64,000 nucleotides of DNA from Lethocerus indicus (taxonomy: Eukaryota > Arthropoda > Insecta > Hemiptera > Belostomatidae): contig JACDQD010000004.1 in the NCBI GenBank assembly GCA_019843655.1, positions 12,214,001 through 12,278,000 of the forward strand, given 5' to 3'. Both the position numbers and the translations under genes were made by a program. Position 1 is the stretch's first letter. Each line of letters opens with the position of its first letter. Under the pieces are notes generated by a model. That model saw nothing but the letters and a program-made list of their open reading frames with translations. It was not told the origin of the DNA and did not search any database. Of the stretch, positions 17,798 to 60,935 are shown one piece after another.

Positions 17798-17826
17798 TTA
17801 ATTAATTATTTCTGTTGCAGGTGAGT
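17798..17826 (+). promoter_or_regulatory. Recursive splice site (ratchet point) 1
   Basis: The junction TTTCTGTTGCAG|GTGAGT joins a 3' splice site ending at 17820 directly to a 5' splice site starting at 17821. Two yUnAy-type branch candidates (TTAAT, with branch A near 17801 or 17805) lie 15-19 nt upstream. In established recursive splicing, the upstream exon is first spliced to this AG, which rebuilds exon|GTGAGT, and the rebuilt donor then splices onward, leaving no exon sequence. The second donor at 17868 supports initial recognition by exon definition. The motif and its + orientation are read directly from the sequence; use in splicing is inferred. Confidence 0.8.
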
Positions 17827-17867
17827 CCAGTTACTTATTTACGGCTTCCTTCAGCTAGTGTGACTAA
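17821..17867 (+). other. RS-exon 1 (47 nt, normally skipped) with downstream donor
   Basis: The stretch from the ratchet AG|GT to the next donor, TAA|GTAAGT at 17868-17873, is 47 nt. The downstream donor lacks the consensus G at -1, so it is weaker than the reconstituted CAG|GTGAGT, as expected if it serves recognition rather than final splicing. The length is not a multiple of three, so inclusion would shift the frame. The phase starting at the first base is open; the other two phases contain stops. Confidence 0.65.
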
Positions 17868-19504
17868 GTAAGTTTTTATTTTTCCGTATCTTTATTTGGA
17901 AATTTCTTTACACCGGTCCTTTTTTAGCTCCAGTTAATTATTAATTCGTATTTCACTGGGAAATTGGTGACTTTTTCCTTTATGTTCTCACATAGCCTTG
18001 TTACTTGAATTAGCTGGCTTCAGTGTGTGTGGGAAATTTTATCAATCAGACCCCTCTTGACATACTTTCACCTACTGAATCCACTCCTTAGAAGGAAAAC
18101 AGTTTGCCTGTGGAATTATCATAAGTTATTATCATAAACTTATGTTGGAATTGGTCTTGTGTATGGTATGTACTCAATAGCTACTCTTGAACCTCGTCAC
18201 TGTTGTAGATGCTATTGAGCAGATAACCCATCGCTGCTTCCCGTAGGCCCAAAGGAGTGATCTTCCTTATTATTCCGTATTATAGATTCCATTTTTAAAA
18301 TATTGTGGTTGAGAAGAATAATTGTTGGGAAAAATTCCACGCCCGATTGCGGTTTATTATTATGGCACGAAATGACTTCAGCCTTGCATCGTAATTTCCT
18401 TCAGACAAATTAGACTACAGCTGTCCGTCCCCCGGTCAAGAACTATCATTGATTTTAACGTCCCCCCTAATAGTTCGGCTTTATTGCTAGTGAGAAACCA
18501 GCACTTCTAAAATTCGATAAACCGCAAGGTCGTTCGGGGAGTTCCACTCGGTACGCTGGAATTTTAGTTTCTTCTTGGAATATGTATGACTCAGTTACGT
18601 TGGTCGAACTGTTTCCTCTTGCGTGAATAATTTTCAGGGTTGTCCTACCACACGCTGACTTTCTTGCTCCAATGGTGATGGAACGTTGAAATAGGGAAAA
18701 CGCTTCCTTCTGGAGACCCCGTATGGTTAGGAACTCGCCTTGGTGGCGTGAGGGCCACCGCCTTCCGAATCAGAGACAAATAGAATTCGTTATTAGTTCA
18801 ACAGTGTTTTTTCGCTTTTAAGAGCCAGTCAGTTCATATACGTAATTGCTAAGTCTTGAAGATTTAACGACATCCTTATATAGCTGGAACCGAGCGAGTC
18901 TTCGTCGGACTCCTTTCTACTCGCTGTCGAGACCCCTCGCCGGAGGGATACCTTAGTTTAAACTCGAGTATCCCACTATTAGTAGAGTGGTTAGTACTAT
19001 TAGTTCGTGAGGTTCAAATATTGCTATAAGAAACTAGAGTTTGGAGTGACCGCATGACAAATAAATGTCTCCTGCCAGTGCTGTGAAAAGCGGATCCTTT
19101 GATGTCGCACACAGAAGTTGTGAATGTGAAGTTGACACATTTCATTTGAACATAGTTACGAGTTTGGGAAGAGGTCTGGGATGTCTGTTGTTACTGTGAT
19201 GCACTCTGTTCCCCTCCACAACCCCATGGGTTATTTTAGTACAGCAGAATACCTTTATTCTCTTGTCAGTATAAAATTAAATTTTCATAGTGCTGTCCTC
19301 GACGCACATTGAGAGGAACAAAATTGCGCGTCAGACTTTCCGTTCAAATTCAAAGTGTTTAGAGTGAGGCTTTGGATTCGAGGCTTTCCTGGTGGCTCTC
19401 CAAATTATACAGGATTTGTTAATTTGAAATGAATAATTGAGTTGAGCTTATTACACTATGCTCATGAGAGAATAAGAAAAATGTCCGAACTAAACGACGC
19501 GATT

Positions 19505-19523
19505 TCTCATAATAATTATGAGA
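19505..19523. repeat. Inverted repeat, 9-bp arms, 1-nt centre
   Basis: TCTCATAAT and its exact reverse complement are separated by a single A. This may be a dimeric protein-binding site or chance in AT-rich DNA. Confidence 0.6.
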
Positions 19524-20179
19524 GGTATAAGCACCGATTGTAGTCGTATGTCTCGATCGATGAAAAAAAGGAAAGGTATATTTTTTTTATATTAGAATAT
19601 GGGATCTCGAGTTCTTATTAGGGCAAGTTTGAATCAGCAGATCAAAAGGTATGTCGTGTTTCCCCCCTTCGATTCTTCACGGTCGTTCCATCCATAATTA
19701 CTCCAAGTGACAGATGTTTCGTTACGAAATTACTCTCTAGAAAACCTAGTTACCTCGGCAATAGGACCTAGGAAACTGGAGAATCCAGTTTTTATATCCA
19801 GTACCTAGCGTCACTTACACAATCGTTTAAATACGTGAAAAAATGTTTAAACTTAATGTGAAATCACAGCCACTACTCAATAAAACGCGCAGGGAAATGT
19901 TCACCCCTCAAGAGGGGTTCAATGAGAGCAGGCGCAATTGAAGAGGAATTTCGGTGATGGGGTCGTAGCATAGTTTGTGGGGTTAGAGGGACGCGGAGTG
20001 AGCACTGTGAATTACAAATCAGGTTTAATTAATGCGATTTTCGCTAGAGAAAAAAAGTACCCGTATTAGTCTGTGTGCGTGTAGCTTTAATTTTGTTAAA
20101 ATAAAAATAATTAGCCAGATTAGCGTGACATACACAGTGCTAACAGCCAGATGTGAATCCGGAAAGTGATGTTTAGAAA

Positions 20180-20560
20180 AGTGTGCTATGACGATTGGGC
20201 AAGAGAACGGTCGTCGGTCAGGGTGTTCTTGGTTCTGGCCGTGTATGGGCATGGCCCCCGCCCCCTCCCTCTACGCGTGACCTCGCCACACTGACTGCTT
20301 TCCTATTTCGGAAAAATCTTCCTCCCCTCCGCCTCAGGCAAATGCACAAAAGCGCTCCTCCCCCCCCCCATTATCGAGGGAATAAACCACCTTTGTTGAA
20401 CTCCTTTTGGTCTGGTTATGGAAAAACGCTTTACTCCCGCCCGATATCGGGCCGTACTGGGAATGGCGTCATCGCGATTGGACGGTGAAATTGGGTTGAA
20501 TATATTCCGTTTCTTCGCCGCAGCGGTGCGTTGAAATTGTCTCGGGAAATTGTGGGGGCC
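20180..20560. other. GC-richer island, function unknown
   Basis: This stretch is clearly richer in G, C and CpG than its surroundings and includes C-rich tracts near 20255-20270 and a 10-base C run at 20360-20369. A 97-codon open frame (20195-20488, +) is Pro-rich and low-complexity, and looks like a by-product of composition. The island could be a conserved regulatory element, an internal promoter or a non-coding exon. No TATA, initiator or splice pattern decides between these. Confidence 0.25.
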
Positions 20561-21896
20561 GACCGTATAACTGTCTATCGTAGGTTTTTTTTATTATTTT
20601 TAAACCGTAGTTTTCCATTCGGTTTGTCGTGTCCTTGGTATGTAGCTGTTAATGTGAGATCGGGCCGTGGGGGTTACACGAGTACACCTTTGGTGCCTCG
20701 TGCTGGGTATGAAGGTGGGGGAGGGATTACTCATGTTTATTTATTTAACCAGATCATAAGTAAGTAATTCTCCAAATTATGAATATTCCCCGGACATATT
20801 AGAAAACGGAACCGGTTGTTGTTATTGTCCCACCGAATATTCGTTAAAGACCATTTTTCTTCGTTTATAACTAAAAGTGCTCTGTCCTTGTACCGCCACG
20901 TGGGGGCTTCCCCGTTATCTTGAGTACGATGGTGGAGGGAACCAATCAGGAGGTAAAACACCGAATTTTATTAGTCTGATTGCGGGTAAAGTTATCTACG
21001 AGTGCAAGTTTGAGTAATTAATCTCTTCAGGACAGGATTCTTCAGATGGGATTTTCCTTCATTTGATATTTGAATTCAGTTCAATCTACATTTCTTTTTC
21101 TCTCATTTTCGAGGAATTACGTATAAAATTGTTTTCAGAAGCTACTGTATATTATGATACCAATATTTGGTGTCTTACTCCTTTCTGTTGGATTAAGTAA
21201 ACAGTCAGTAAACTTTAATAACTTTCTCTGTTATTTAGTGAGTGAATATTGCCTTATAAGTCCTGAATACATAAACTGTGTCTCCCGCTGAAAGGTCAGG
21301 GTTCACAACCTATGACACTTAACGCTTGCCCTCAAATTTGTATTGCAAATCACTCAATGTGAGTTGCGTAGGATAAAACAATCAAATATTGATTATTGCA
21401 GAAGGAGAATATTTATGTCTGCTGTCTCAGTCTCGTAATACACGGGTTCGAGAACATAGCTGAGCTTGAGAATTTAAGATCTATAATCGGTTACAATAAT
21501 AAAATAGGTTAAAACCAACATCATTATTTTTGTAAAAAATCAACCAAAACAAATTTTAAGAGAAGAATGTTTCGTCGATTTTACTGTCCTAAACGAGTTG
21601 TGTCCAAATCTACTAACTGAGCTTAGAACTACCTTTTGTTGAAGAATCGGTAAAAAATTCAAGTATAAATGGTCTGGTATAAACATTTGATTCTAATCAG
21701 TATATTGGGGTTTAGCCTTCAATTACTAATTTCACATGATAAAAACTTAGTTAACTTTCCATTCAGATCAGGAATAGCGTTAATGTCGGTCTCTCCTAGT
21801 CTTTACGTCTGTGCAGTATTTGATCAACAAAGGTCCTTCACAATCATTCGAGCACTCGAAAATAGTAAGGGCTCCTTTATAAGGACTTTATTAGTT

Positions 21897-21916
21897 CGTG
21901 TATGCATGCATACACG
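21897..21916. repeat. Perfect 20-bp palindrome
   Basis: CGTGTATGCATGCATACACG equals its own reverse complement over 20 bp, with two overlapping ATGCAT cores at its centre. It could bind a symmetric dimer or extrude a short cruciform. No function is known. Confidence 0.85.
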
Positions 21917-22971
21917 TCATGAATGCAGGGTTAATTACACAAAGGGGGTCAGGTTCGTTAGTGAATAGTAATTTATAAACTTGTCTTTCGCAATTCGACT
22001 TTCCACTAATCCCGGTCTTGTAAATTAAACTTAATTCGAACATTTGTCTTTGTATTTGAAATTTTGACTTTTTGTCCAATACGGTTTTGGCTTATTGGTC
22101 ACAAGTCAATAATAATGGAATTTAAAAAACTCACTACAGTCTATATATCTTGTACGTAAAACGGTGATATTTTATCAGATTGATTAGATCAACGTGTTTC
22201 ATACGCGCGTTATACAACTAAATCAATTAGACATTAAATAAAGATTGTAAAAGAATCTAGGTCGAGTCTCTTTTTACATGTCGCCTATATTTCCATCGCA
22301 TGCACCGATAATTCCCACCTGGCTCTGCTTCCAAAATATTGCTGAATGTTGTGTAACGTCCCTGAAGTGCGACAACTGGCTCCCGGGCCTATTTTTAATA
22401 TTAAACAGACACCTTTCCCCTCTGTTTATTTTCTATTTATAAATCAAAGCCAGTTTCACCACCGGTCAATGCCAGGGGCTCATTATTTGCCGATGCCAAG
22501 GCCGACGATTCCACTTCCCTTTACTCAAATTATTTCATTAATTTTCGCATTCTGATATCGGGTATTTACTACCCCTAACTTTTTAATATGAATTGATGCG
22601 TCGCTATTTTTTCGTCCAGAGTTTAAATTTTACAGGGAATCATCATTGAATAACGATAATTAAACCGTAATCCACTGATAACAGCTAAATAAACACAGGA
22701 TATGTTATTATCTTCCGCGATCTGTAGCACCCATTCATTCCTATACGAGAGAATTTACTCTTGCTATCTGGGGGTTTTACGAAACACCCGGAAAATGCTT
22801 TAAAAGCGGTAAGGCGGTTGTTTAATTTCGTCTATCGAGGTCGAGGGAAAATTGAGAGTGCCGTGTCGAAAGGGTGGACCAGTGCTATAGCTGTTGACGA
22901 TTGGCCTAATCATCATGTTGAGACGATACGTCTATAATTGTCTGAGCACTTAGTGTTGAAAGGTTTTGCCC

Positions 22972-22989
22972 GGGGGGGGGGGGAGGGGG
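22972..22989 (+). repeat. G-run (12 G, A, 5 G)
   Basis: An almost pure G tract of 18 bases, in the sense orientation of the presumed intron. It is prone to length variation and sequencing error, and could contribute to a G-quadruplex in RNA or DNA. Confidence 0.9.
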
Positions 22990-24639
22990 CCACCTGCCAG
23001 TACGTTGCTCCCTGTTCCCCTATTCGGGGCCCCCAGTTTATTAATATAATGCATTCGGATTGATAATGCCATACTGTGAGAAGCGGATTCAACAATTGCT
23101 GCCATGCATTTGTTTAGATCTATTTGTAAATTTATTAGTAATTTTATTATTTCCCGCCCAAAAAATTTTACATCTAATTTTTCCTACACTTTCTTCTTCA
23201 TTTTTATAAATCCTCATTACTACGAGATGAAAATAACTTTTGTACCGACTTGCTGGTAGAATTATTTGCAGTGTTAGTAATTCTGTTCGAATATTAACAT
23301 GATATACAAATTGTCGAGTAGTTTAAGCGTATGTTCGACTTATGATGAACGAGTCCTTGAGGTATTTACGAAGTTTTTTCACTAATAAGTAGTGGCAATT
23401 TATATTTATAATGTTTTACCTGTTCTCTTCCCAATGCTTGCATAACAAACTACAATATTTTGTTAAAATTTTGAAAATAACCTTTTAATCGATCGGGGTT
23501 CTAAAATTCTTTATCTCTTTTCTATCCACAGGTATAAATGTGTGAGGTATTTTATTTTTCCCTTGTCTTTATGTTTGATGACAACAGTGTCTTAATGTTT
23601 GGTAAATATTTTAAAATAATTATGTAATCATTCAATAATAATTCTCTCTCAGGCGTTCACTGAAGTGGGCGTATTTGTTAATTCATTTCGCGAACCCACA
23701 AATGTTTTGACCACAAACACATGAATGAGTTTGACGCTCGATTCGTCATATATCACTGACACGAAACAATTTGCTTGGCTTTGATTTATGGAAGTCAAAG
23801 AATTTCGCCTCACATGACGGCGTGAGTTTGAAAGGTCAATAAGTGTGAAATTATTCAGTGACGCGCGGTGACTGAATGCTCAGTTGTATTCTTAACTACC
23901 ACATCATTAATCCGGAATTTTTTTTTAATTTCGAATAACCGCAATGGCGTTAACATAGGCTACACTTTCCGATAAGTATTGTTATTATCGACGCTTGTTT
24001 AAATTAAATATTACGTCGTGCATTATGAATTCCCGGTTTGCTCACATTCATATAGCCTGCTATTCAAATATGGCTCTGGTTTGAGAACTTAATCCTAATT
24101 TCTTCTATTGGTTTTGCATCTTATGTTTATTGTTGGGAATGTATAGCCTGTATAGCATTAAACGTAACACGTCCCTGTACAATTATTGTGAACAATCTGT
24201 GCATACAGTATCTCTTCTGTCGGGCTTGTGGTGTCATGCTAGCCTTCACTAAATTGACCCGGTGTTGAACCACCCAGAACCTAATTCTCGGACCTGTATA
24301 TCATTCCGAAACGATGAGGACAGAAACAGTCAATGTCAAATGACAATGTACAATGCGTAGTGATTGACATATAAAGATGTATAATTATTGGATCTTTAAA
24401 GTAATTAATTTTCATGTTTTTCACTTTTCTCCCTTACCCATATTGACGATGGGTCGATGGGGTTCGCGGTGAACTGAAAAATCGAAATAACGGCGACTCC
24501 TTCAGAGAAATCGACGCCATTTGGTTCTCAAAATAGTTAAGCTTCCCACCACCATAGGCAGCACTCACTAGACCCTCTCAACTGAAATTTAACGTAGTTT
24601 CAGTTGTAGGTTTCCCGGATTATTTTTGGATTCACTTCA

Positions 24640-25640
24640 CTTCAACGTTTCTTTAATATTAAAATCTTGAAAAAACAAATCATTAAGTCTAGTCAGCCTA
24701 CATTTAATTCCAATTTTAAAATAGTTCTCATTTTCTTTAATTCTTTACTTAAGGATAAAAATGGAAATTGATTTTGAAATATTGTGTTTTAAATCGTGCC
24801 ATAGCTTGCAGCATTATATTTACATTCATTTTCAGAATATATTGAATAAGCAGTGGTTTATACAAACTAGAGACTTTGAAATTTTGAAAGTTTTTAGAGT
24901 AAATGAGTCTCACAATCACTTGTCTTAGTCTCCCAGAACTATTAGGTGAATGTTTTTACCTCATTTTGATTTAATTACTGTGCTAGGAAAATGAAAAGTA
25001 ATAAGTATATAAATATACATTAAGTATATTATATACTAATGACTTTTATATTTATAATAAATTCTGTTTTTCATTGAATATGATAGTGCTGATTGCACTT
25101 TCATTAAAATTATGTGCTAATGTCAGATTACTCTTGGTATTTAAAATCATTTACTGTAGAAAAATTAATTTAAGATTTTAAATCAGTGCTGTGGCATTTC
25201 AGAAGGGCTTATTATTTTATCTCAATTTCTGTAGATAGGCAAAACAGTTTCAGATGTTTTGTGTTGCCCCACAGAATGTTTCCTTGGGATAGGAAGAAAA
25301 TTTGCTTATTTCAAAAGAAAACTTTTTTCTTCTTGGAAATGTGTTCTTTATTAGTGCCTATCCCACTTACTTGAATTGATTAGAGATTATTTACCTAAAT
25401 ATAAAAACCCATTTTTATTAGTATTTGCCGTCAGTTAAAGGAATTGAAATATGATCATAAAATTCGCACACAGTTAGTACTGAGAGTATAAAGTGCAGAC
25501 AGTTATTAAAATCTCCAAGAGTTATTACAAAACAGATCTGAATGAACTTGTGCCAACTGCAATTATATACAACCGTAGTACAATATATATAAAAAGAAGC
25601 ATTATTTTAAATGCTTGCTTCTGTAAGTTGATTTATGTTG
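24640..25640. repeat. CpG-depleted patch, probable decayed repeat
   Basis: About 1 kb of sequence contains only around half a dozen CpGs, while neighbouring stretches contain several per 100 bp. AT content is also raised. The contrast suggests different origin or methylation history, typical of an old transposable-element insertion. No ends, target-site duplication or coding relic is identifiable. The open frame at 25186-25374 (+) resembles nothing known. Confidence 0.3.
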
Positions 25641-26219
25641 GGCGAAGAAGGTCATGAAAAATGATTTATCTATTTCGGACAGAGTATATATCTATCGTAA
25701 TATGGAGGTTTATTCCGGTGGGACTCCTATACTATAGCTTTATTTTAGACATGAAAGAAGCCTGCCGTTTAGGTCTCGCCGGAGGGGATCGTAAAAGTTT
25801 TACGAGCTGATCATTACACCTTTATTGTTGTACATCCTTTCAAGTTGCTTTTAAAGTTACTATCCTTAAACTGGAACCTAGTGTTACAACGTTATTATGT
25901 TTCAATTCCTGTGAAAAGTTAGTCCGTTTATGACAGGTTTTAATTACTACCTACTTTTTTTTTATTATGCCGCGATATCTTTTTCATTTGGATAATAACC
26001 CAGTAAATGTTAAATTAAAAATTATTGTTAAATGACATTTGCGGTTCGTTACATCGTGTTCAGTGAGAGGTACTAGTGACATGAAAGAAATAATTTGATA
26101 CAGCATAACATAACTGGGCGACTTTAAAAAAAGTTATGACCGATCAACGACGTGGATGGTTTTTATTCAACCCATTGTTTTTAATGGTAAATGAAGAATA
26201 ACATTTAATGTGAGCAATG

Positions 26220-26760
26220 TCGTTTATTTGTTGCGTATAACTCTGTATAGCACACGTGTTATTTGTTGGTTTGTAATTGTTCCGTGTGCTGTAAGCTGGA
26301 CCCTTGGGGGGTCAGAGAGTGACCCGGGATAGTAAACTCGAAGAGAGACGAAATTATTGTTTGACGATAAAATAACATTATCCGGGCGAGGTAACGGCCT
26401 GTAGCCCAACAGCGTGTTTCTGTTGAGAGCCGCGGCCTTGTATAATAATGAGATGAAAGGGACGAAAGTAACCAATTTGTGACCCGAAGTTGTGTATATT
26501 GTGTTGAGCGGACTTCTGGCAAGGTACAAAATTGGCCTGCTTGGGGCCTCATTAGGGCTATTAATCGGGGTGTATATAACGCGTTGGGTTGAGGAAAGAA
26601 GCAATTAATTTGGGGGAGAAAAATCCGTGAGCGTTTCTCCCCCCGGGCATCCCAGCGAAAATGTTCGACCCTCGTCTTGTAATTAAGGGGCAGAAAAAAA
26701 TATACATTTTCGTTGGACGAAACATATTTATTTCCTGTTAAAACGCAGCACACTTTATTT
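26220..26760. other. Stop-poor GC-richer block
   Basis: Two overlapping minus-strand frames, at 26259-26753 (164 codons) and 26224-26604 (126 codons), stay open together. In this AT-rich background a 164-codon run is mildly unusual, but local GC enrichment lowers stop frequency in all frames and explains much of it. The predicted peptides have no recognisable domain or periodicity. A conserved non-coding element is as likely as an exon. I do not call a gene. Confidence 0.25.
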
Positions 26761-29559
26761 CATGTAAAAAAAATTTCGAAAAAGTAAAATGAAAAAATAA
26801 ATTCGCTGCTGATTGTGAACAATGTACTCGTAGTTATGATCAGAATTTACAAATTTACAGCAAAATATAAACTGTATCGAATTGTATTCCCCGCCTTGGG
26901 TTAGTTATGATCAACATTTTTAATTATAGTGAAACGTATCCGCGGAAATTTTCAGTTCCACATTTCTCATTGCATTCGCGACATTTGAATCATGAAAAAT
27001 AGCTCACCTCTAATTAATGTAAATTACAATCTGCAGTTTTCATGCGCCTGATGAGTACCACCAGTCCCATATTTCTGCCTTTCATATTTATGCGATTAAA
27101 ATATACAATAACAAATGACCAAAAATGAATTAGTTTCAGAAATCGATAAATACATCGGAGGAGAGAAAAAATAAAAGTTTTATATTCTAGTCTTATTAAA
27201 GAAATAAGCTACTCCCCCTTTCATTAGAAATAAGTCATTCGCATAATTATTGTTAGCTATTGTCGCATTTATAGCAAGATGGGGCAAATTAATGAATTTC
27301 ATTCATAACATAGTTACCGTCTGGAATGATTATATTTTGGCCCATATAAGTATTTTAGGAATGACAATACTGTTAACGTAAATAAATATATTCTTACAAT
27401 ATATAGTCTCGCATATTGCGGTATAATACTGGAAGTAATTTTAACCTATTTCATAGTGCATCTTTAACAATCAGTGATATTTTAAAAGTTCACAATTATA
27501 TTTTTTTCATCTCTGAAATTTCGTATTGTTTTAAAAACAAGTTGTTTACTAATAACCGACGTATTATTCGTGGCAGATTTCCTTTTGTGCTTCTAATTTG
27601 AGTAGTATAAAACAGTTTCAGAGGTTGGGGCTCTCGCCGCTAGAAATCGCTAATCGGCTTAACTCTGCAAGAATATGTGAGCGGTTAAATTCAGAAATTG
27701 ACACTCGGCATGTGAATATTTATCGGTTTATTTTTCCATTGTTCGGAAGGTTAATTATAGCGGCTTATATTATTATCGAGACCACCATCATTACGCCATT
27801 AATATTCCCATTACTTTCGTTGACTCGGCTCTTCTTCGGCGCTTCTCCTACATTATTGTATTTCGCCGGCATACTTATACTGCACCGCTTTACTAACTTA
27901 GATTACAGTGACAATAAACAGATAGTGTTTCAACAGAGGATCTAATTAGGAACAGAACCATCACTAGTGATTATATTACTACCCTTCGCAGTCATCGTCA
28001 AAAAAATTTTAAACAAAAAACGTAAAATAATTATTTACCTTTATATTGTTTAACTAGACGTACCCATTAGTGGTAGACATTTTGTGATGTCAACGGAGCA
28101 TCGGGTTTCATGGCGGGGCGACTATTTTTGACCAATATGATCCTGCTCTCGGCCAACTTGTAGTCTCGTTCTGAGAATTTGCCGGACGAGTTCTTCAGAC
28201 GTATGAAGAGTTTTTATTGGACAGTCGAGAGGGAATCGAGGATTCGAGAATGTCTGAACTTCTTGGAATGTAGGGCTGACCATGGCCGCCGTTTCCGCAA
28301 ATACTAGATTGAAATATTTTCATCTTATTTCCCAATAAAGTTGTGATGCGAGAACTTCATGGAACGTTTATTCTTTACTGAAATATATAAGAAGAATTAC
28401 ATTTAATTTAAAAATAATGTACATTTTTTATGTTTATCGATCTTTTATTTATTGTAATTGTAAAAATATTGAATATCCGATGTGAGTCCACCAACCAATC
28501 ACCCCCCCTGCTCAGAATTTATAATATCGTCCTCCATAACTTAGTATTACTGAGGTAGGGGCCTGTTTTAGTCCCTGACTATCAATAGTACCAATCCTAT
28601 ATTCCATATTGAAAGTTACTGTAACAGTTGTGGTTAGAACTGATTACAATAATACTGACATGGTGATTCATCACCAGCTGTGTTGAATTATTACCTCACT
28701 ATATTGCAGAGGGAATGGAATATGGGTCTGTGAAATCGGAAGATCGCTAGAGAAATTATTGGATCCTTTTTAGGTTCTGCTTGTCCTCAGAGGCTTGTTA
28801 TATTTACAGACGAGTAATCACGGTTGATTTTGTTCTCTTATTTTAAGAAAGGGTCGTTAGCCTCGAGCTCTTCTCAGTTGAGTGCCATTGGATCGTTTTT
28901 TACTATATTTATATGGCAGTGGATCAATTTGTTTTCCGTTGTATCCATGGTTTTATATATATGTGACTCAATAGCTGAGCATAAACTTTTTTATTTTAAC
29001 TTTATTTTTTTTTGTACAATCAACTATTACTAGTTATAGGTACAATGGCGGTAGTTTGGCTGGTTTGACTTGTTTCGCTTGAAAAATACGCCATCCAGTG
29101 ATGGTACTTTTGACCTGTATCCGGCCTGCAGAAGGTCTCGAGGTCAGTGGTTTATATTCCTATAAACGATAGGAATTTTTTTTATTGTATTTAGCGACAG
29201 TGCGCTTTTGATAACTGGAATCGACATTTGAAAGGAGAATCGCCCATTGGTAGTACTCGTGCTCCTGACCGTACTATTGTTAAATGGTGAGGAAATTACT
29301 TGGCCAGTATGATTTACAAGGATTGGATTTTATAGGACTTGGTTGACCTCCATAACTTCAAACTTTCGTGGGCCCCCGAAAATGTATCTTAAATTACTAA
29401 TCAAATATTACTGACGGTGGGTTGCTTTTCTTGCTTTCATACAAAATATCGATTATGGGCCCCAGTGTGCATATAATTTTTAAAAAATGCCTGCAAACTT
29501 TGTACCGCCTTAGCTCGGTTTTTCGAGGGATTCCGACCGGAGATGTCCTATTTTTGACT

Positions 29560-32552: not shown

Positions 32553-32668
<116 letters not shown>

Positions 32669-47400: not shown

Positions 47401-49999
47401 GGATAGATAGTTGAAAAAGTCCTTAAATAAATTTTTCTATACCGATTTAGATCCGACTATAATTTACTATCTTTGTTAAGAGCTGTTGTTATCACCGCTG
47501 ATTTATACGTACATAGTTGCTATGAAATTGGAGGTATGGACGGGTAGTTGGGAATGAGCGGATGAAATGATGAAGGGCTTGGATAGGCGTTTTGTTTTGA
47601 ACTCTGAATTCGCATAGCTGGTGCTTACTCGCGGCCTTCAAAGCGTCCACGTGTTTGGCTGTCGCCATATTTGCATGGCTGTCGTTACCCGCAGCCCACG
47701 CCATTTCAAGTTCACCACTTCATTTACCCCGCTAATTTTCCAACTTTATTGATTGGTTTTGGACGTCTTTAATTACGAATTTCAAAAATTGGCGCACTGT
47801 CGTTTTATAACCAGGTACACTGAAGTCAGTTTGTTGGAAATGATATGTATTAATACCTAATTCAATTTGAATTGTCCCGCACAAATAACACTCATTTTAT
47901 AAAATCATTGGGGTTCTGAGACTAGTTTATCCTCAAGTATTGACTTCAGATTAATGTAATGCTTGTCCATTCGTTTGTATATTAAGTAGCCCTTATGATT
48001 AAGCGTCGTTTAGTCCCTGAATCCTAGGTCGGGACGACTAATGTGTTCGATTTACGAACAACTGACTTCATGCAGATGTGTGTATCATGTTACTACTCAG
48101 TTTTATCTGTGCAGTTTTTGAGAAATATTTATTTTCAACATCATTTATGGTAAAAGCTACTAAGGAAAACATGCCAGATTTCATTCATTTGAATATTAAA
48201 TCCCTGGTCCACTCAAAACCCCGTTGTGCAGCGTTGTAGAGCGCATGGAGATCGACCCGTCCCACTTGATGTACCGTCTACAGGGATATAGGGTTTCTTA
48301 TTTTATCCAAGTTGACTTCCGAGCGTTTTATCGTCTTTTAATGTTTAAATAAACCCGGTTGTATATCCGTTGGCAGCATTTTTTTGGTTGTAATTTCGTT
48401 TTCTTCGGTTTCTTTAACGTGCCAGTTGACCCCGTCACTTTGCATCTTGCCATCCGCTCCATTTTGCTAATATTGATTTGAATAGTCCATACGCTATCCA
48501 TTACAGTCTTCTAAGCTTCGATCAGCCTTGTTTCGATGGTTTTTCTGCATTCGGAGCAGTTACGTATACGCATGAAATTGAACGAAAACTGTGGTGTTTC
48601 ATTGCCTTTATTTCGTCAGCAATTCAAAACACTCCCCGAAGGACATTATCTCTTGTATTTATTTCCTTTTTTAAAAACCACACTGGCCTTCCAGTTATTG
48701 ACACGACGCGAAGTAATTGTCGTAATTGAAGGAGACAAATTTTATTTGTTCTTGCACAAAAGCAAACCGCAGTTCTAAGTATTGAATAATTGGCATCCAT
48801 AATGTTGCGAAAAATGGCATATATTCAAATAAATTACAGATAACATATTTTTCTTCAGTGGGTCAGTTCTGAAGCCTTTATACAACATTACAGTATTCCC
48901 ATTGCAGTTTTCATGTTGTAATTCTACATTTATGCTTTATTTATAATTTATAATAAAGTAATCCAATAAATGTTTGATATACTAATAACTATATTGAATG
49001 AAAGTTGGATAATCGTTTTTATAATTATGATCATATAATTAAGAACAGAAAAAAGAACAATAAGTAACTGTTGCTATTTATCATCATGCTAATCATTGAG
49101 AAAGACCCGATTGGAAAGAACGTAGTGACAAATTCGGGAAATCACATTGATGTGAAATGGAGTGAGTCAGGTGGCGATTTACATTACATATTTATTTAAT
49201 GGAAATTTATAATTCATTTGTTCTATTTATTATTATTTATCTGTAAAATTAGGAGGGGTTGGGCGTCTCTGAATGCCTCAGATTATACCGGTGTAAACGA
49301 CAAGAGCATTTCCCTGAGAAATTAATTAATATCTGCCACCTCTGTCGCTAGACGGTTGTTCGATTCCATTAATTCACGTGCCTATACCGGAATTTACTGG
49401 CAAATGTCTTCCATAATCATCTTCAGGGTTCTTGGTTTCGTACTAAACACCTACCTTACGTAGGTCCAGATCCAAGGATCTGGAAGGAATTACAGTGGGG
49501 TGAACGCCCGAACAAAGTTCGAAAGAAAATTCCATTGTAATAAGTAATGCATAAATTTATTCTCAAAAACTGAATAACATATAATTATTTGGTAAATTAA
49601 TTTATATGAAGGAAATTTTTTACTAGCGATAACTAGTAACTAATATCAAATATTAACTAGTAATCAAAATCATTGAATAAATGTTCTTAACGTACCTGTC
49701 CTGCAATTTATTGACACTTTTATTTAATTTTGGATATAGAAAATTGTTTTTTGTGACGCTGCTTCTTATATAGATTTGGATTACGGAAATGGCCGGCGGT
49801 AAAACTAAATTTGATAGATTTCCCTTAAGAAACACTCCCTAATCGGTCATTTAGGGCTTTAAATTTTTCCTTTTACCAACCGTTGATATATATGCAGGCT
49901 GTCTCTGGAGGAGGAATCGGTAATCCTGTTAGGTTTAATTGGGCGGAGTTGGAGTCCTTTGTCTAGCTTCGGTTGGAATAATTTGCCAATTAGTATTAT

Positions 50000-50420
50000 T
50001 TGTCCAGTGAAACCTTATTGGCTTCCGGCGCTGTGAGCCCTTCCCCCTGCCGGGAGTCAACGACCGATGCCTCAGCTTCCCTTTCAATAAAGTGGAGCCC
50101 CCCTCGGCTCCTGTAATAATAACGCTGGGAAAATCCCGAAAAAAACATTTGTTTCAGCGCGTTAATTGGCTGTTCAGTTTCGTTTTCCGGAAATGTTTTT
50201 TCCCCGAGGTGTTTTGCCCCGAGTTTTAATTAGCGCAAACATATACGTCAGCGTTTGTCCAATTTTATCACTTTATCCAATAGATATTTAAATTCAAAAT
50301 ATGTGCACGAAATTGAATTCCACTGTTAATTAGGGTATTGTTTGAATCCGTTTCCATCTTTCGCGGTAAGTGGAACCGCTTGCACTTTCTGTCGCAGTTT
50401 ATTGCTAGGGGGAATGGTAA
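50000..50420. other. GC-richer block, candidate conserved non-coding element
   Basis: This is richer in G+C than its flanks and contains homeodomain-type cores (TTAATTGG near 50163, TTAATTAGCG near 50227) next to CpG-rich words. A donor-like GCG|GTAAGT near 50366 has no good acceptor close upstream. An enhancer role is conjecture. Confidence 0.2.
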
Positions 50421-53400
50421 AGGATTTGTTAGCGGTCGATTGGTCCAGAGATTCCAGATCTCATGTATAATGAGAGTAGTTGGGCGATGAGGGGAAATTG
50501 GAGCAAAATTCTGACATTGCTGACAATAATCTTACCAATCCGCGAAAGAAATACGAGTTTACTTTTCCTGTTATAATGATTACAAGTAATAATGCCATTG
50601 GATATTTATTCTCTTGGAAGTTCTGTAATACTTTAATTTAATTGGCTTTAATACTTTGCCTTTTGAAATGGCCAAAATTATTCTGTCGTCCTACCTGTTG
50701 GGAGCGTTGGCAGCGGGTGCATGATTCCTGCATCGAATTTCGCTGTCGGGTGATTTCAGTCTGTAACAAATTGATATTCTGTGATAGCCTGGTTTTATTT
50801 ATCTATCACCTGTCCGTTGATCAGATGATTATCAGGAAATTCACTTCTTACTCGAGCCACCCATTCTTACCCCTGCGGTACTCACCTGCCAGGACGTCAG
50901 TGTCCTGAATTAGTCACTTGCCTCAGCTTTAAGTGTATTTCCATGTTCGACTGGAGAATCCTATTGATTTTTTTAGTGGCCCTACAATATTCATTCGCGA
51001 CGGACCCGTTGTGTGTCATCGATGTCAACTCACCTTCCCGAGGAGAGAAGCTAAGCGGCGAACTGAATTTATGTGATAATGCTGGTCCGTTAGAGAGCAC
51101 CACAAAATGATAATCATTAATCATAATCGATAATGATAACGTATAATCATTATGCATTCTCGTCACTCGTATAGTTATCTGCCTACTAGTCGCTCGCCTG
51201 GTTCTTGGATACTATAATGGCTTTGGACGCCTGTTGAGCATCCTGTAATTACTGTACTTACGTACAGTATCCCGAAATTACCTGCCATGATAACCTTAGG
51301 AGTCGAAAGACGTTGATATATTATTTATGGTTTCTAGAGTAAATGTTTACACCATTTATATTTCTTATTCGTGTATAACATTTTCGTCTGCATTCCATGC
51401 GAATTGTGTTTTTAATAGCGCGGCGTGCTGTAGCTTCAAAAATATCTTGTAATCGTCCCAACCCCCCCCGTTTCATCGTAACACCCCGATTTTAAATACA
51501 GAACTGGGCGCTTGCTCTGTTTAGGGGCAGCCACCTGTAACCATCGGCCTAGACAGTGAAACAGAACAGTGAGATATCGGCCACAAATATAACTGCTGCC
51601 TCTGTATATTTGGCTCCCGCACATAATTATTGTACGCCCCTTATACTGTTCGTTGAATTCGGAATTTTAGTGAATAATACCGGTTATAAATACTGTTTTA
51701 AATTTTCTTAATTACAAATCAACTTTCGAAATATATTTGTATGTTTATAGTCCATTCCAGAAATCCAGAACATACCGGTTTTTTTTAATTGATATAAAAC
51801 AATAACGTATTGCACCTGTGTAATCTTATGAATTGGTTCAATAGATATTCTATCATTTCACTTATAACGTTTTAGTCTAATGATTAAATATGGAAAATGG
51901 AGCTTGCTTTTAGGAAATTACCCTCCTGTTGAACCGGTAATATCGACCTGAAAAATTATTTTTGTTCGAGATATCATTTCATTAATAATTAATCACCATT
52001 CTGTTTGTACACATTCCTCTTCCAATTTGAAATTAACCCGTTAAAAATCTGTTATTCTTATATTCAAAAACCACTATATCAAAAAGCATGAATAATTTTT
52101 AAAATTTGTTGCTTTGTATATAGCTCTTCTACAAGATCTCGTTAGTAATTGGGATATCGTTGTAACAGCTGGGAATTTAACATTGACTACCGTGATGTAA
52201 TATAAAGAATTTGATACCACTGTAGGCGCCTATTTGATTCAAGGTGTATAAATAAAATCTCAATGCCAACTGTCCCAGTGTCAAGTGCGCCCAAAATTAG
52301 GAACGCTATAAATTCGATTCAGTTATGGTTTTTTGTGTATAGCGATTCGTTTTTTGCATGTACGTCGTTTTGTAGTGAAATCATATCATTCAATTGATAC
52401 TGCTAAATTTGAATCGCCAAAACAGAAAGAATATTAACAGGAATCGAGGGACGGACAAGATAAAGGGAATTCCTATAAGCGATTTTAATCGTTTGAAGCT
52501 GTCTTAAAAAATTTTTAGTAAAATCGGGCAATAATATTGGAAGAGTGTTCGACATTTACATCGACAGTATTATGCGGCTTTGCTCAGTGACTGTGTGGTA
52601 ATAAAAACCCGTAGTAGTTCAGGTTCTTCTCCCTATAAAGAATTTTGTTATTTCTTGAATTTGTATTATCACGATTTTATTATAACATCTCTATATTTTT
52701 ATTATATTGGCATGCGCCATTTCTTCATCAACTTGTTTACACCCATTAATCGCTTAAATTGGGTATTACGCGCGTCTATAATTTTCAGTGGAATATGTTA
52801 TTACAGTAATGAATGTCCGTCAGTGGCGAACGTCTGGGGGTCCTTTCGTGTCATCCGGGAAGTCGTGCGGACTTAATGATCCCGGCTAAATAATCGTGTA
52901 GGCTAAATGATCAGTTTTACCAGGCTGATGACTTAATCGGCTACTAGATGCCTGTGTTATCGCTTTCTGTGAATTTGCAAGTTACCTTTACCATATTTGC
53001 ATCGCATCAATATACGCTTTTCTGAGTCAGGGTAAAATAACTTACATTCGGCTTTCGAATAATACCTATTCGTATAGTATTTTTCGTTCTGTAACAATGA
53101 TAGGAAGAATCCTTGCGATTTATCTTAATTATTCGAAGTTCTTATAATTTAAAATACTAATCGCGAATTTAATTACTATTGCTTTAATCGTTTTTCTATT
53201 TTCCTAAAACTAACTACTGTGATTTGGTTCGGTAATAAACGAATCTCCAGTTTTTAAGCTTTAAGTATACTCCGCCCGTATTTTCCTTGCTTTTTCGAAC
53301 CAAAAATGCAAATTGGAATTGTCATTGATGCTCAAAATGGTTCCAGTTACCTTGAAGTTTTGTCTGGCACTCACCGTTTTTTCCAGCCTCCTTTATTTCG

Positions 53401-55700
53401 TTGACTTCTTTCCTTTCCGTTGAGGTTAAACTGTGCAAATGTCCTGAAAACAGAGCACTACAATGCCCACCCAGCGGGGTGGTGGGAACCGATCCGCCTT
53501 GTGGACACGGCTTACTGCCAAAAGAAATAGAGTAGCCCTGTTAATCTCAGATCCGTGGCAAAAGAAAAGTCGGTCAGGTTCAACTCAGGTTTTAATGTAA
53601 GATTTACAAGTTGGCGCCTTTATAAGCTATGTCTGTAGTTACATATTTTTTTCGTTCGGTATAAAGAAAAATCCTATTCTTCGGAATAAATTGTTCACTT
53701 ACGCCTCTCCTAATCGATTGACTTGATTTGAAGAATGGCCATTCATTCCCGGGCGTGGTTTATTTCGGGAACAGAAGAAACGCTGGCAACTTATATTTTT
53801 TAATTACTTGGATTTAGCGTGTGACATAAAAATTGGATTAATATAGGTATATATAAAATTACTTGATTTTTTAATATCAATCAAATAACTTTAATATCAA
53901 TTTAAACACGCTAAGAAAATTTCTCTTTATTATATTTTATGTACCTTACCTTTTATATGATATTAATATATACCCTCTGTACATTAATGTATTATGAAAA
54001 CGGGGTTGCTCACACGTTTTAATGTTTAAACAAAATGCTCGCACCGTGTGGTTGATTTTAATATCATAGCACAGTAATTAGGTTTTGTTTGTTAATCGCT
54101 ACCTAAGGACGAACGATGAAAACCAAGACACTAAAATCTTTGGAAAAATGATTTCTAAGGACATGGTTACTTTTGTACAAGTTAAATTGATTTTGTCCCT
54201 ATAAAAAGCTCTTCTGTGATACACATTGAGCACTTACAATGTCGAATTAAATTTCCCTGTTATTTCCACTCAGTCTCGTACCGACGGATCTAAATGAAAG
54301 TCTACACAATCGTTTTTTAAAGTTGTGGTGAAGTGTAATGCAAAACTGGCGCTAGATATTATTATTCAATTACTGGTTTTAACTTGAGCAGGTTTTTTAG
54401 TCCTTCTTTACATCGAGATAATTAATTAAATCAAGAGAGCTCCATTAACCCTGTCATTGATCTAGGATACCGGCGCATAGTATAAAATGTCCGACCATTC
54501 AATTTTCGTTTATATCCTAAATTCAATTTCTGGTGAATGGTATTACCTCCCTTTTACCCAGTTACAATAACCCACAAGTGGTAACTAGGGACTAACACTA
54601 TTAATGTTATTGTTTAACCTTGGAATGTTAAATTCCTTTGCGAATTGTTTTGTTATTAAAATCGTAAATTTGAGAAATCCTTTCTTAAGGTCTGCTCCAA
54701 CACTTGATTCGATTAGTCTTTGTTTGAAAATAGAACCTTTGAATTGAAATTAATTCAAAATTCAGTTCATTATATAAAGCTAACGTTAAAAAAATACAAA
54801 ATTCCCATCTCAATAAATCCTTTAATTTACTTTTCTCGGGTTTATGCAGTTCAAAATATGTACTAATGTATTTGTAAAATTGGTATTGGTAAACAGTGCA
54901 TGAAACAATGACCTTTACTTAATAACCAATCCACTGGACTAACCTGTGCAGATGAATGGAATAATAAAGCCGTATTGGCAACTCACAAAGAATACGCCTG
55001 GTGAAATATTCCTGTTAGCTATAAAATCCCACGGAATCCATTACGACGTCGAAGGTATTAAATTTGGTAGTTCGCAATGTATAGCGAACAAGCGCTATAG
55101 TGAGTGCTTTGAAGTGTTGTCAATTTGTTTCTTTAATTTGTTCTTCCGAAGGTATGCCCTTTTGTAAAGTTTCCAATTACCTTTCTCCAAATTTGGCGAT
55201 TGTTCTCCTAGTAGTATACATAGTATTCTCTTCTTGAACTTGGGAGGTGTTCCGGGAAATACACCGGCTTAAAACTGTATGAGAATGTCCTTTGTCTACA
55301 TTCAATATTACTCGGTATATACACGTGGGATGCTGATGAGTTATTCCTCGAGTTACGTTTTACATATGTACCGACTGACTTCCTTTATAGCCGCCTCCGT
55401 GCTTTGTCTCAATTCGATTTTGTCTCGCCACGGCTTTTCCATTAAACCCGGCGACTCTTATATCTGGCGAGTTCTACCCGGAAACACCAAATAATAATAA
55501 TATCTGCGAAAATATATTTTACTTACACCCCGTATCCGGACAGTCGACGTTTCGTGACGACGGTTTTGCCAGCTCAATCAAAAAGTCAGGCTTTTCGCGT
55601 CGGGGAATTTCGTAATGGCCCCCTCCTTTTTTGTCTCTTTTTCCCGAATTAAAGATATGAATCATAAACAGTTTTCAAACCGGCTATCTCTGTTGTGGTC

Positions 55701-55716
55701 GGACCAGATCTGGTCC
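55701..55716. repeat. Perfect 16-bp palindrome
   Basis: GGACCAGATCTGGTCC is its own reverse complement. About one palindrome of this length is expected by chance in 64 kb, so taken alone it is unremarkable. Confidence 0.8.
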
Positions 55717-56975
55717 TAGATTTGCCGAATCCGCTCTGGTTCGGGGCGCGTTATTACCTAACCGGTCGTTAGAGCTACAGTTGAAGGCCGAGTGTTTCTA
55801 AACCCCCTCAATTATTAAGTTTTTTACCTGTGCCAAAATATTTTTCAAAAATACTTTTCATCTTCTTATTTCAATATATTAACATATATTCCCTCTTCTG
55901 TGTATAGTGTGTTTGCTGGTTTTACGAATTGAATTCTGACCTAACAATAGGTGCTATATTTTCTGAGAGGTGGCTCACCTTCTCCCGTCTTCCTTTTGCA
56001 GGTGATTCACTACTTTAATTTTCTACTATTTGTGAACTCTCCCGCTTCCTTCATGGTTTCTTTGATCCCAATCATACCGCAAGACATAAGATTGTCCGTA
56101 GAACTATGTTTTATATACCATATTAGCAATGGAGGACTAGCCCTCATTTCCGCCTAATGCCTCATCCGTCTGACTTCTTTAGCTTTCAAGCATGGTTAAT
56201 TCCTAAGTGCTTGCCGGGGTGTAATTTACTGTAATGTATCTGCGTGTAATTGTTCTGCAGGGTGTAGTTAATATGAACTGTGACCGTGGATTCGCAAAGC
56301 AACAGACACGGGTGCCTCTCCTGTGGGAGGTGGTAATTCAGGAAGGGGGTAGATCTACATAATACCCTAAGTGGGATTTAATAAAGTTGTTCCATAAATT
56401 AATTATTCGTGCGTTGAATTTCACTTGTTTTTCACATTGTGTTCAGATTAATTTGTTTTTCGCAGTCCTTTAATTGATTTCAAATACTTTATAATTTTGT
56501 TGATTCCTCGGCTCCAGTGTACATCGAAACTAGAAACGTTTTCATTTGAAATTTTCAGGTTGGTCCAGATTGATCCATTTATCTTAGTGGCAGTTACTAA
56601 TTATAACCAGATTGAAAATTGCTTCGCGTAAATGTTTACTTTCTCTTTGTTAAATCGACGGATGTCTTACGTCATTAGTCCTTATGCTACCCGTATGGAC
56701 TGCTTGCCGCTTTCATTCAGCCGTTAGATAGTTGTTATCTTGTTTAGTATAAGTTCCAAATGATTAAATTATAAAAAAAAAGTACAATGATGAAATACAT
56801 AACAATCCGGACGTCGATAGAGGCAAGCTCTACCTCACTCTCGTTTGGCATGGAATGTTGTCCTGCTGTATATATAGCACATTAAATTCTGCCATACTGC
56901 AAACATTATGTAATGCAGCATTAAAAACGGACGTATGAAAACTACGATCGTAAAAGAACGACTATCTGGTTATTA

Positions 56976-56997
56976 TATCAAAATATATATTTTGATA
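56976..56997. repeat. Perfect 22-bp palindrome
   Basis: The half-site TATCAAAATAT is followed directly by its reverse complement. TATCAAAA-type halves are A/T-rich, so composition helps, but this is the longest perfect gapless palindrome seen in the window. A second inverted repeat (9-bp arms, 2-nt loop) lies nearby at 57045-57064. Confidence 0.85.
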
Positions 56998-58571
56998 AAA
57001 GCCAAAATGGGTATTATATTCTATAAGTTCTGATCAGGGCTATAAATAAGGTTTCAACCTTATTGAGGTCAATACAATTTCGGAGAGAACATTTTCATTC
57101 ATAAATAAATGCGAATATGAAATATTTATCCAGTAATTTTTGGCATTATCCCAATCTCTCTACATTCAATGAAACCAGTTGTCGTTTTATAATATCCCGC
57201 ATCCCTAGCTTAATATCTTAATAAAGAGCCGAGACGTTATGTCCGATAGACGTTTTTGTCTTGGCTTAATTAAAAATAGTGTAACAACAGTTAAACATTT
57301 ACCAACTTACTATGCCAGGCAGAATTCATTCTCGAATACATCATAATTTTTGTTAATTTTCCCGCAAATGATTTCAGAATAGTAAAAACTATTTCATAAA
57401 ATAATGAAGTTTAAAATTAACATTTTTAATGAATAGTTATCATCTTTGTAATAAGTTTAATATCGACATTTTCAAAACGCTCGTGGTCTGTTATCTGTAG
57501 GTAAGCGGCTGCTCTGGAATGCACAGGCGATACTCTTGACGCGATAGGGCATTTGCGTTTAAATAATCGAGTGGAGGATATTTGCTGAAAAAATGTCTTC
57601 TGTGAGTTTCCCGAAGAATGAGAGGGCCCCAATTAATTATTAGAATGTCGTAAATTCATCGCGAATAAATTAACGGCCACGTTTCGGTTGAGTACATGAC
57701 TTGAAAACGTGTAATTGGTAGGCGTTAGGTTAAACACGTAACTGCATATTCCGGACAAATTTACGAGTTATTTACGAACAATTAAAATTTATGGCCGATA
57801 GGTGAGAATTAATGCAATGTTGATAATGTTCAAATTAATAAACGCGTGAATGTTTCCGTGAACAGAACTGGATATATTACCAGTTAGTACTTGTGCTATG
57901 GAATGGAACCCGAGCAGCAGCTGGTGAGGCTCGAGTTTTTCGCAGGTTTAGGACTTAACACCTGTCAGTACCAGCAGAAAGTTGAAATCTTCTGGCCCGC
58001 AACTGTCTTAGGTCCGGCTATAGCAACATCCGTATCCACATCCAAATTTTGAGCGTTGAGGTATAAAATTCTTACTCTTTCGGCTGGTAGTTGCGTTGTG
58101 GCCGAGAACATTGATGTAGATTAGGAATTACTGTTTTGTCATCTACCCGGGTTTTGATCATAACGATTCCTGTAGGGCGTGCTGTCCGACTTGCGTGTAG
58201 TCCAGTTATCACAGTGCTGATCCCATGGCCGGTATATAAGCACTATGCCTAAATTCCGATCAAGAAACCGACCAAATCAAGACTCCTTGTTTTGGACACT
58301 CCTTGTGTTGGTTTCTTACGACGTCTTTAACCCCACAGCACGAAATTATACATTCGGAACTACTGAAAGGAGTTGCAGTAGGACAGCCTGGTTTCTCTGC
58401 CTGCAGCAATTCGGTAACGGGTAATTACCCAGTTCATGAATTCTCTGGCGGATAGAGAAAGTTATTTGGGGTCGTTGAAAGAACGTTGAAGGTTGAGGAG
58501 AAGGATGTACGGGTTGGTTTTTTAATTTTCAAATTACAATTGGTAACTGGAAACCTGCTTTCTGTTGGGAC

Positions 58572-58589
58572 CCGGGGTTCGAACCCCGG
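58572..58589. repeat. 18-bp palindrome resembling a tRNA/SINE B box
   Basis: CCGGGGTTCGAACCCCGG is a perfect palindrome and contains GGTTCGAACC, matching the RNA polymerase III B-box consensus GGTTCRANNCC. The T-arm geometry is imperfect (one G-G pair) and no A box or acceptor stem is seen upstream, so it is not a tRNA gene. It could be the remnant of a tRNA-derived SINE. Confidence 0.4.
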
Positions 58590-58799
58590 CGACGGACCGA
58601 TTTTCCCTCGCGATTACTGCAATATTGGAGGTCGAATACCCACCTGGGCAAACTGTTTGGCAAAACACACTTGGTCGGCCTTCAATTCCGCATTCAGGAT
58701 CTTGCTCAAACCTTGCAAATTCTTTGCAAGCACTTACCTAAGCATTATCAGATTAATATTTCAGTGTGGCCACCGTATAATTATACATTGTAATTAATA

Positions 58800-59520
58800 T
58801 AAATTATTAATTACAGTTGACCACAACATACTGATCAAAATAAAATTTCCTCTGTCCTTGAATTTCGAACTTGTTTGGCTTTTCTGATTTGGATATAAAA
58901 AAATACAATTGTAACATTAGTTTTATCATGCCAGGACGAAAAATAAAGCAATAGTACTTATCACATGTAAGATGATTATTAAAAAATTTAAAAAGAAACA
59001 TTACTTTCTCTCATATTATATGTATATTCAAATATTTATCACTTCAAGGAATATCTCGGGATATTTAAAAGTCAGATTATTGCTCCTCCGCCACATTACT
59101 GATTTCATGATGACAAAATTCATCGTATCCAGTGATAAAACAGTATTCTAATATGTTTTTTCTTTTACATATATTCGTAGTGTTACTACTTTATTGAGTA
59201 TTTCATTTGTACTTAGACATTTTGGTCACCATGATAGTATTGTTCAGTTATTTTGATTTAGGAGAGACAAATTTATTCCTTATTATTCAGAATTATTCCA
59301 GGTCAACACGAAATACTCAAGATTTGAAAGGCAAAATAATCAAATAAAGAAGATTTGTTGCCCACTGTGGTCTTTTTAAGAAACATGGTTTGAAGTCCAA
59401 AAAAATGTTCGTTTATCTTTGTATTACTAAAATTGAAGGGTTCGTACTCAAGACTGGACAAAACTGTCAAGGTTTTGAAAAAGAAAAAAAATTCATCTAA
59501 TTTGACGATTAGGTGGTGCA
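58800..59520. repeat. CpG-poor AT-rich patch
   Basis: Fewer CpGs than its neighbours. The open frames (58807-59001 - and 59303-59521 -) are Phe/Lys-rich and unrecognised. It may be an old repeat or simply low-GC intron. Confidence 0.2.
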
Positions 59521-60849
59521 TTTAGGCTTCCTTTTTTTATTTATACTTAGAGGAAAACAGTCGTTACGATAAATTGTCGTTAACACACATTTGGACTCTG
59601 TGATTTATATTGCCGACGTCTAACAATCACGTTCTACTCTGCGTAATTCTTGTTTTTCTCACTATATACGGTATCAGGTGATTAATGTCTATATTTCTGT
59701 GCCTCGTAGCGAAATAACTGTCATTTTAAATTAGTCGTAAATAAGGTCCAGTTCTATATTTACTAACGTATGATCAAGCTAATGTCCATCAAATCCCTTT
59801 GACAATATGTATCAATTACCCAAAACGTTTAAATTGATTGCATTATTATCGCTTTTTGTCTGTACTAGTGGTGTTGCTTCTACTGGTTTTTGAATTACGT
59901 AATAATCAATTTCGGTGTGGGACCTTGGTAGTCCAAAAGTAGTATTGTAGTGTACTGTTACCGATTTTCAGTTCAGTTATTACCAAATGAGCGAAAGTTA
60001 CTAATGGTACATAATTGACAATACTAAATCCTACATTATATCTTGACATTATGCGTCTGACTGCTTTCATATGTGGGAGATGTTTCCGGAAACGAGATAT
60101 GTCGGGGAGCCATTCATAATAATGTTCCTTAGGCAACATAAACTTGATTAGGGTGCTTGAATGTCCATAGTAATAGAATATTATCGTGGGATAGGATTCA
60201 GTAGGTATTTTATGCGCGGAATTGATTTGTGGACATTGAAAAATTGTTTTAAAAGTTCATTTTCATTTGTAGTTGACTTCTCTTATCTGTCTTCCGCCGT
60301 CCCACATCTCTCTTTCTCTCGCTCCCTCTGGCATAGATATTATCACGATCGGCTGCATTTTTTTGGTATTTTTCATTCTTGTAGCCGACTGCAGGGAACG
60401 AGCTTCATCCAATTGTAATATTTGGTTAGAAACTTTTAAATTCTTTATTAATTCATAGTTTGGAATCACAATATCTGACAATCACAATTACAATTCCTAT
60501 TATAACATTGCGAAACAATACCATTTATTTGAAGTATGCACGTATCAATTTCGGTAATCGAAGGTTTAACTAAAACTTTCTCTGTTTGTGCATTTAACAC
60601 ACGGCCAAAACGACTGTAACGAGGATACTTTCCATTTACTAATTAGTAATTATGAACGGATAATTAACTGATTTCGTAGTCAACTGTTTTGTCATTTTTT
60701 TTATTAGTTTTGTGTCTTTTGTATTTCTATAATATTCTATTTTATTATTACTATTCCTTTTATAGATTTTTAAAAATTTTGATTTGTAATTTCTTATTCT
60801 ACAATGTATTGAATTTATAGTTTTAAATACGTCCGCAAGTAGTTGTTGT

Positions 60850-60884
60850 TACTAACTGGCTTTATGTTTCCGTTGCAGGTAAGT
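60850..60884 (+). promoter_or_regulatory. Recursive splice site (ratchet point) 3
   Basis: A perfect TACTAAC branch motif at 60850-60856 (branch A at 60855) is followed by a pyrimidine-rich tract and TTTCCGTTGCAG|GTAAGT, with the AG ending at 60878 and a full-consensus donor beginning at 60879. The branch-to-AG distance is 23 nt. It lies 25,420 nt beyond ratchet point 2, in the same orientation. By motif quality this is the best combined acceptor and donor in the window. Confidence 0.87.
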
Positions 60885-60929
60885 GCTGGCGTTGATTGAG
60901 GAACTAATGGTGAATGTGCTGTTTTAATT
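60879..60929 (+). other. RS-exon 3 (51 nt, normally skipped) with downstream donor
   Basis: The next donor, ATT|GTAAGT at 60930-60935, lies 51 nt after the ratchet junction, close to the 47 and 52 nt of the other two sites. It lacks G at -1 and is weaker than the regenerated CAG|GTAAGT. All three phases of the 51 nt contain stops, so inclusion in mRNA would be expected to give a nonsense-decay target. Confidence 0.7.
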
Positions 60930-60935
60930 GTAAGT

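Follow-up and report, generated by a model that had tools for sequence, protein, structure and literature searches.

Three co-oriented candidate ratchet points, each heading a cryptic exon, in a probable giant intron of Lethocerus indicus

Does the stretch of Lethocerus indicus contig JACDQD010000004.1 between positions 12,214,001 and 12,278,000 lie inside a giant intron that is taken out in steps, by recursive splicing at ratchet points where an acceptor is fused directly to a donor? An initial annotation of this DNA had pointed to three such AG|GT junctions on the plus strand and proposed that they divide one intron into separately removed segments. We analyzed the complete 64,000-nt stretch (the window; coordinates below count from its first letter) and found features spanning 17798..60935 of the plus strand which suggest that the window is very probably part of a very long intron in a plus-strand gene, with three ratchet points of the Drosophila type.

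Direct reading of the plus strand found the junctions exactly as placed: TTATTTCTGTTGCAG|GTGAGT at 17820/17821, TATGTTTTGTTTCAG|GTAAGT at 35458/35459 and TGTTTCCGTTGCAG|GTAAGT at 60878/60879. All three acceptors end in CAG, giving CAG|GTGAGT at 17820 and CAG|GTAAGT at 35458 and 60878, and at each site a strong 3′ splice site is juxtaposed to a strong 5′ splice site around AG|GT. When the 385 AGGT sites on both strands were scored with a generic acceptor-plus-donor matrix, 17820, 35458 and 60878 took ranks 1 to 3. A strict rule that required YAG|GTRAGT and 9 or more pyrimidines among the 13 positions of the tract retained three sites on the plus strand and none on the minus strand of the whole window; the minus strand holds three YAG|GTRAGT sites, with 5, 6 and 8 pyrimidines.

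The pyrimidine-rich acceptor, branch candidate and GTRAGT donor described in the initial annotation are likewise present at all three sites. TTAAT occurs twice at site 1, once as the branch candidate whose A is about 20 nt upstream of the junction and again with an A at about 16 nt; site 2 has CTGAT (A about 22 nt upstream) and site 3 has TACTAAC (A about 24 nt upstream), a motif that alone is not rare in the window (5 on the plus and 7 on the minus strand). No other AG lies between branch candidate and junction at any of the sites. The nearest other AG is about 42 nt upstream of site 1 and about 36 nt upstream of site 3, and none occurs within 60 nt upstream of site 2. The sites and the segments between them are as follows.

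17798..17820, plus strand: acceptor of candidate ratchet point 1, TTAAT, pyrimidine-rich tract and CAG (from reading and ranking)
17821..17826, plus strand: donor GTGAGT of candidate ratchet point 1, fused to the acceptor (score 9.2 in CAG context)
35434..35458, plus strand: acceptor of candidate ratchet point 2, CTGAT, T-rich tract and CAG (reading and ranking)
35459..35464, plus strand: donor GTAAGT of candidate ratchet point 2 (reading and ranking)
60850..60878, plus strand: acceptor of candidate ratchet point 3, TACTAAC, pyrimidine-rich tract and CAG (reading and ranking)
60879..60884, plus strand: donor GTAAGT of candidate ratchet point 3 (reading and ranking)
17821..35458, plus strand: putative complete recursive segment of 17,638 nt (from coordinates; use in RNA presumed)
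35459..60878, plus strand: putative complete recursive segment of 25,420 nt (from coordinates; use in RNA presumed)

These lengths agree with the 17.6- and 25.4-kb segments given earlier for the two complete steps.

In Drosophila, according to PMC8605326, the fused acceptor and donor of a ratchet point head a cryptic recursive splicing (RS)-exon of about 50 nt that has its own downstream donor. This downstream donor is an independent test that the initial annotation overlooked. Indeed, a second GTRAGT donor follows sites 1, 2 and 3 at 47, 52 and 51 nt, respectively. The earlier statement that no exon intervenes at the junctions therefore holds for the expected outcome in mRNA, where zero nucleotides would remain, but is incomplete for the DNA, where each site opens a cryptic exon of one of these lengths:

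17821..17867, plus strand: cryptic RS-exon 1, 47 nt (47 mod 3 = 2; from the downstream-donor search)
17868..17873, plus strand: GTAAGT donor of RS-exon 1, in a weak context with A at −1 (donor scoring)
35459..35510, plus strand: cryptic RS-exon 2, 52 nt (downstream-donor search)
35511..35516, plus strand: GTGAGT donor of RS-exon 2, in a weak context with C at −1 (donor scoring)
60879..60929, plus strand: cryptic RS-exon 3, 51 nt (downstream-donor search)
60930..60935, plus strand: GTAAGT donor of RS-exon 3, in a weak context with T at −1 (donor scoring)

Closely 3′ of the RS-exon donors at sites 1 and 2 (17868-17910 and 35511-35555, plus strand) we also observed TTTTTATTTTTC; a U-rich stretch after a donor can help U1 binding.

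A GTRAGT lies 40-70 nt downstream of a sampled plus-strand position at a base rate of 1.25%. Among the plus-strand AGGT sites, 6 of 199 have one at this distance, namely the three ratchet sites and three that end in AAG rather than YAG. The combination of a YAG with at least 9/13 pyrimidines and a GTRAGT 40-60 nt downstream was found at 3 of 305 plus-strand sites, which are exactly the ratchet sites, and at 2 of 199 minus-strand sites, neither of which is followed by GT. The overlap between the two sets has a P of about 2e-7, for a test that was selected post hoc. Because all three sites carry a downstream RS-exon donor, the reading of stepwise splicing is strengthened.

The two donors at each site differ in strength. 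None of the RS-exon donors has G at −1, and they score 2.4-2.7 against 8.3-9.2 for the ratchet donors, using an approximate matrix and an exon end of AAG or CAG for the latter; at site 1 the values are 2.6 and 9.2. Without G at −1 the RS-exon donors should therefore be outcompeted by the ratchet donor, as is normally the case in Drosophila according to PMC8605326, and the relative strengths fit the donor-competition model set out there.

On this basis, the upstream exon would be spliced to the CAG of each ratchet point in turn. Acceptor recognition may be aided by exon definition across the cryptic exon, which spans about 50 nt and ends at its weaker second donor, and the cryptic exon would then be removed together with the next segment, leaving no trace in the mRNA. 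The three sites most likely belong to a single intron, whose removal would then take at least four steps. The sequence itself shows the motifs, how they rank, the strand they share, the downstream donors and how strong the donors are relative to each other; we infer the shared intron, the use of the sites in RNA, the order of the steps and the host gene. Recursive splicing, as first proposed, thus remains the best reading and is now backed by the downstream donors at all three sites; the single intron of more than 64 kb and the use in RNA that were proposed with it go further than the sites do, which themselves require an intron of only at least 43 kb.

How often would such sites arise by chance? 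We simulated 400 order-2 and 400 order-4 Markov windows. Plus-strand sites scoring at least 8.6 occurred at a mean of 0.08 (order 2) or 0.0775 (order 4) per simulated window, and their minus-strand equivalents at 0.0375 (order 2) or 0.0775 (order 4). Three high-scoring plus-strand sites were reached in 0/400 order-2 and 0/400 order-4 windows, and the Poisson P for at least three such sites is about 8e-5. With the strict rule, the mean was 0.15 for order 2 and 0.055 for order 4, and no window had more than 2. None of the simulated windows (0/800) combined a strict plus-strand fused site with another donor about 30-80 nt further downstream. Chance is a poor explanation for the three sites.

The sequence around the sites is consistent with long non-coding DNA. 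A six-frame Pfam scan (stops written as X) of 28 of the 30 frame pieces recognised no coding domain, its four matches all falling far under the cut-off (best E 0.1) and being taken as chance; the remaining two minus-strand pieces, compared with PDB sequences only, gave no match at E 0.1. The longest open reading frame (26259-26759, minus strand) had no relatives at E 0.001, and both an Rfam scan at the gathering threshold and a tRNA scan with bacterial settings were empty. We found no dispersed repeats of at least 60 bases within the window (16-base seeds) and no transposon domains by Pfam in the 28 pieces scanned; judged on repeats within the window, it is apparently repeat-poor. Pure TA arrays lie at 17329-17380 (26 copies) and 32555-32665 (30.5 copies), the second adjoining a TG array. 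The CpG observed/expected ratio of 1.09 shows none of the depletion which characterizes vertebrate genomes, and a vertebrate source was rejected on this ground.

The plus strand is skewed, with T>A in 16/16 4-kb bins and G>C in 14/16. This is the direction associated with the sense strands of transcribed regions. On such general knowledge the skew agrees with a single direction of transcription, for which it is only supportive, and the strand-skew literature (PMC10946897) is not decisive on direction. A search that paired acceptors with donors around an open frame listed four exon-like pairs on each strand; it demands strong donors, and the RS-exons themselves are therefore not listed by it.

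Several observations weigh against a plus-strand giant intron with three ratchet points. The scoring matrix is approximate rather than trained, and the thresholds, that of 8.6 included, were picked once the sites and their scores were known. If the acceptor rule is dropped, AGGTRAGT is found four times on each strand, and the strand asymmetry therefore rests on the acceptor half of the sites. Polypyrimidine-YAG sites (at least 9/13 pyrimidines) are commoner in general on the T-rich plus strand (305) than on the minus strand (199), so that composition explains part of the acceptor asymmetry. The G>C skew is only slight, and an argument from strand skew lacks an established basis in the host species. 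Acceptor/donor pairing in the window found no host exons, and the best exon-like pair (53514-53375, 140 nt, one open frame) is on the minus strand, possibly as an exon of that strand or by chance. The minus strand also carries CAG|GTGAGT at 50886 (50830-50930), with a score of 6.1, a poor tract and GTAAGA motifs just downstream, and two weaker fused sites, at 3727 and 57500, share the plus strand with the accepted ones. Finally, the segments of 17.6 and 25.4 kb exceed those of the fly, for which PMC6110457 gives typical lengths of 9-15 kb and a mean of 9.1 kb.

Among the alternatives, the one that survives best is that the sites are real but spread over at least two plus-strand introns or genes, with fewer than four steps per intron. 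Short exons without known domains may escape the searches used, and four open-frame exon-like pairs do lie on the plus strand; however, the frame pieces searched yielded no recognised domain, and the pairs are no more numerous on the plus strand than on the minus strand. We consider this division unlikely.

The sites could also mark short alternative exons of the ordinary kind, 47-52 nt long, that happen to begin with GTRAGT and enter some mRNAs, as expressed RS-exons like Ultrabithorax (Ubx) m1 and m2 do. Each site does have an acceptor and a donor at the appropriate distance, and RS-exon 3, with 51 nt, is as long as the Ubx m1 RS-exon (PMC8605326). The Ubx elements (Hatton 1998, as cited in PMC8605326) resemble those described here: the RS-exon is about 51 nt long, carries a donor at the 5′ end and sits in a giant intron. 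In contrast to the coding Ubx RS-exons found in some mRNAs, two of the three exons here shift the frame and the third has stops in all frames, and all three have weak donors. RS-exons 1 and 2 (47 and 52 nt) contain stops in two of three frames each, and RS-exon 3 is frame-neutral in length, yet has stop codons in 3/3 frames. The three downstream donors, lacking G at −1, score far under the ratchet donors, and cryptic fly RS-exons are described in PMC8605326 as generally out of frame and removed. That these are ordinary alternative exons is improbable.

The weakest alternative, that they are functionless splice-like motifs in intergenic or intronic DNA, can draw on the frequency of GTRAGT (25 on the plus and 30 on the minus strand) and the equal AGGTRAGT counts, but is very improbable given three sites in none of the 800 simulations, strict sites confined to one strand and a correctly spaced second donor at each of them. 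A minus-strand host gene was rejected on the absence of strict sites from that strand and on the plus-strand skew, with the candidate at 50886 noted as a lesser one.

Other splice-like sites in the window were considered and rejected as ratchet points. The AGGT site of rank 4, at 56001 on the plus strand, combines a strong acceptor with the weak donor GTGATT and has no GTRAGT within 100 nt; the region 55980-56010 holds its very strong acceptor, ACCTTCTCCCGTCTTCCTTTTGCAG, followed by GTGATT. At 3727 (plus strand), CAG|GTATGT has a weaker donor, and its second donor GTAAGC is 101 nt away; this site (3706-3840) makes a weak candidate and precedes the first of the accepted ratchet points. TAG|GTAAGC at 57500 (plus strand) likewise has a weaker donor, with GTGAGT (57602) 101 nt downstream, and the site (57479-57607), which lies 3.4 kb upstream of ratchet point 3, may be a fourth ratchet point that is weak or decaying.

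Three ratchet points in one long plus-strand intron are thus the preferred reading, and they can be set beside known systems. Like the Drosophila ratchet points in PMC8605326 and PMC6110457 (Pai 2018; also Burnette 2005, Duff 2015 and Joseph 2018, as cited), the sites conform to YAG|GTRAGT, are several and co-oriented, lie in a very long context without recognised coding domains, and head a cryptic exon about 50 nt long whose own donor is weaker than the ratchet donor. The sites described here differ in being candidates called from sequence and in delimiting segments longer than the fly mean. For introns >50 kb, PMC2773006 gives 2.2 ratchet points per 100 kb for the fruit fly, 0.5-1.0 for mosquito, bee and beetle, and 0.08-0.14 for the vertebrates listed (complementary strands 0-0.12); our three sites per 64 kb are only loosely comparable, as the scoring differs. 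The excess over the complementary strand in the same source is 4.0-fold in the bee, 8.0-fold in the beetle and 21.7-fold in the fruit fly, with a mosquito control of zero. The RS-exons of long vertebrate genes (Sibley 2015, as cited in PMC8605326) share with our sites the ratchet acceptor and donor and the downstream RS-exon donor. The vertebrates listed in PMC2773006 show little strand enrichment of such sites (0.9- to 1.5-fold), unlike the window analyzed here.

What we describe is an extension of a known process, not a new mechanism. For a species other than Drosophila, the complete design may have been kept, with a fused site, a cryptic exon of 47-52 nt and a losing donor with a −1 base other than G at 3/3 sites, a proposal that we put forward tentatively and with some doubt. 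If true, it would suggest that the cryptic exons are selected both for recognition and for losing, and by that rule the recursive introns of any insect genome could be picked out from the DNA itself. If used, the three sites add one multi-step recursive intron, and ratchet points with RS-exons would be callable from raw sequence by a fused site and a second donor about 50 nt downstream. Such sites would help to map how widely recursive splicing is relied on among insects to remove very long introns.

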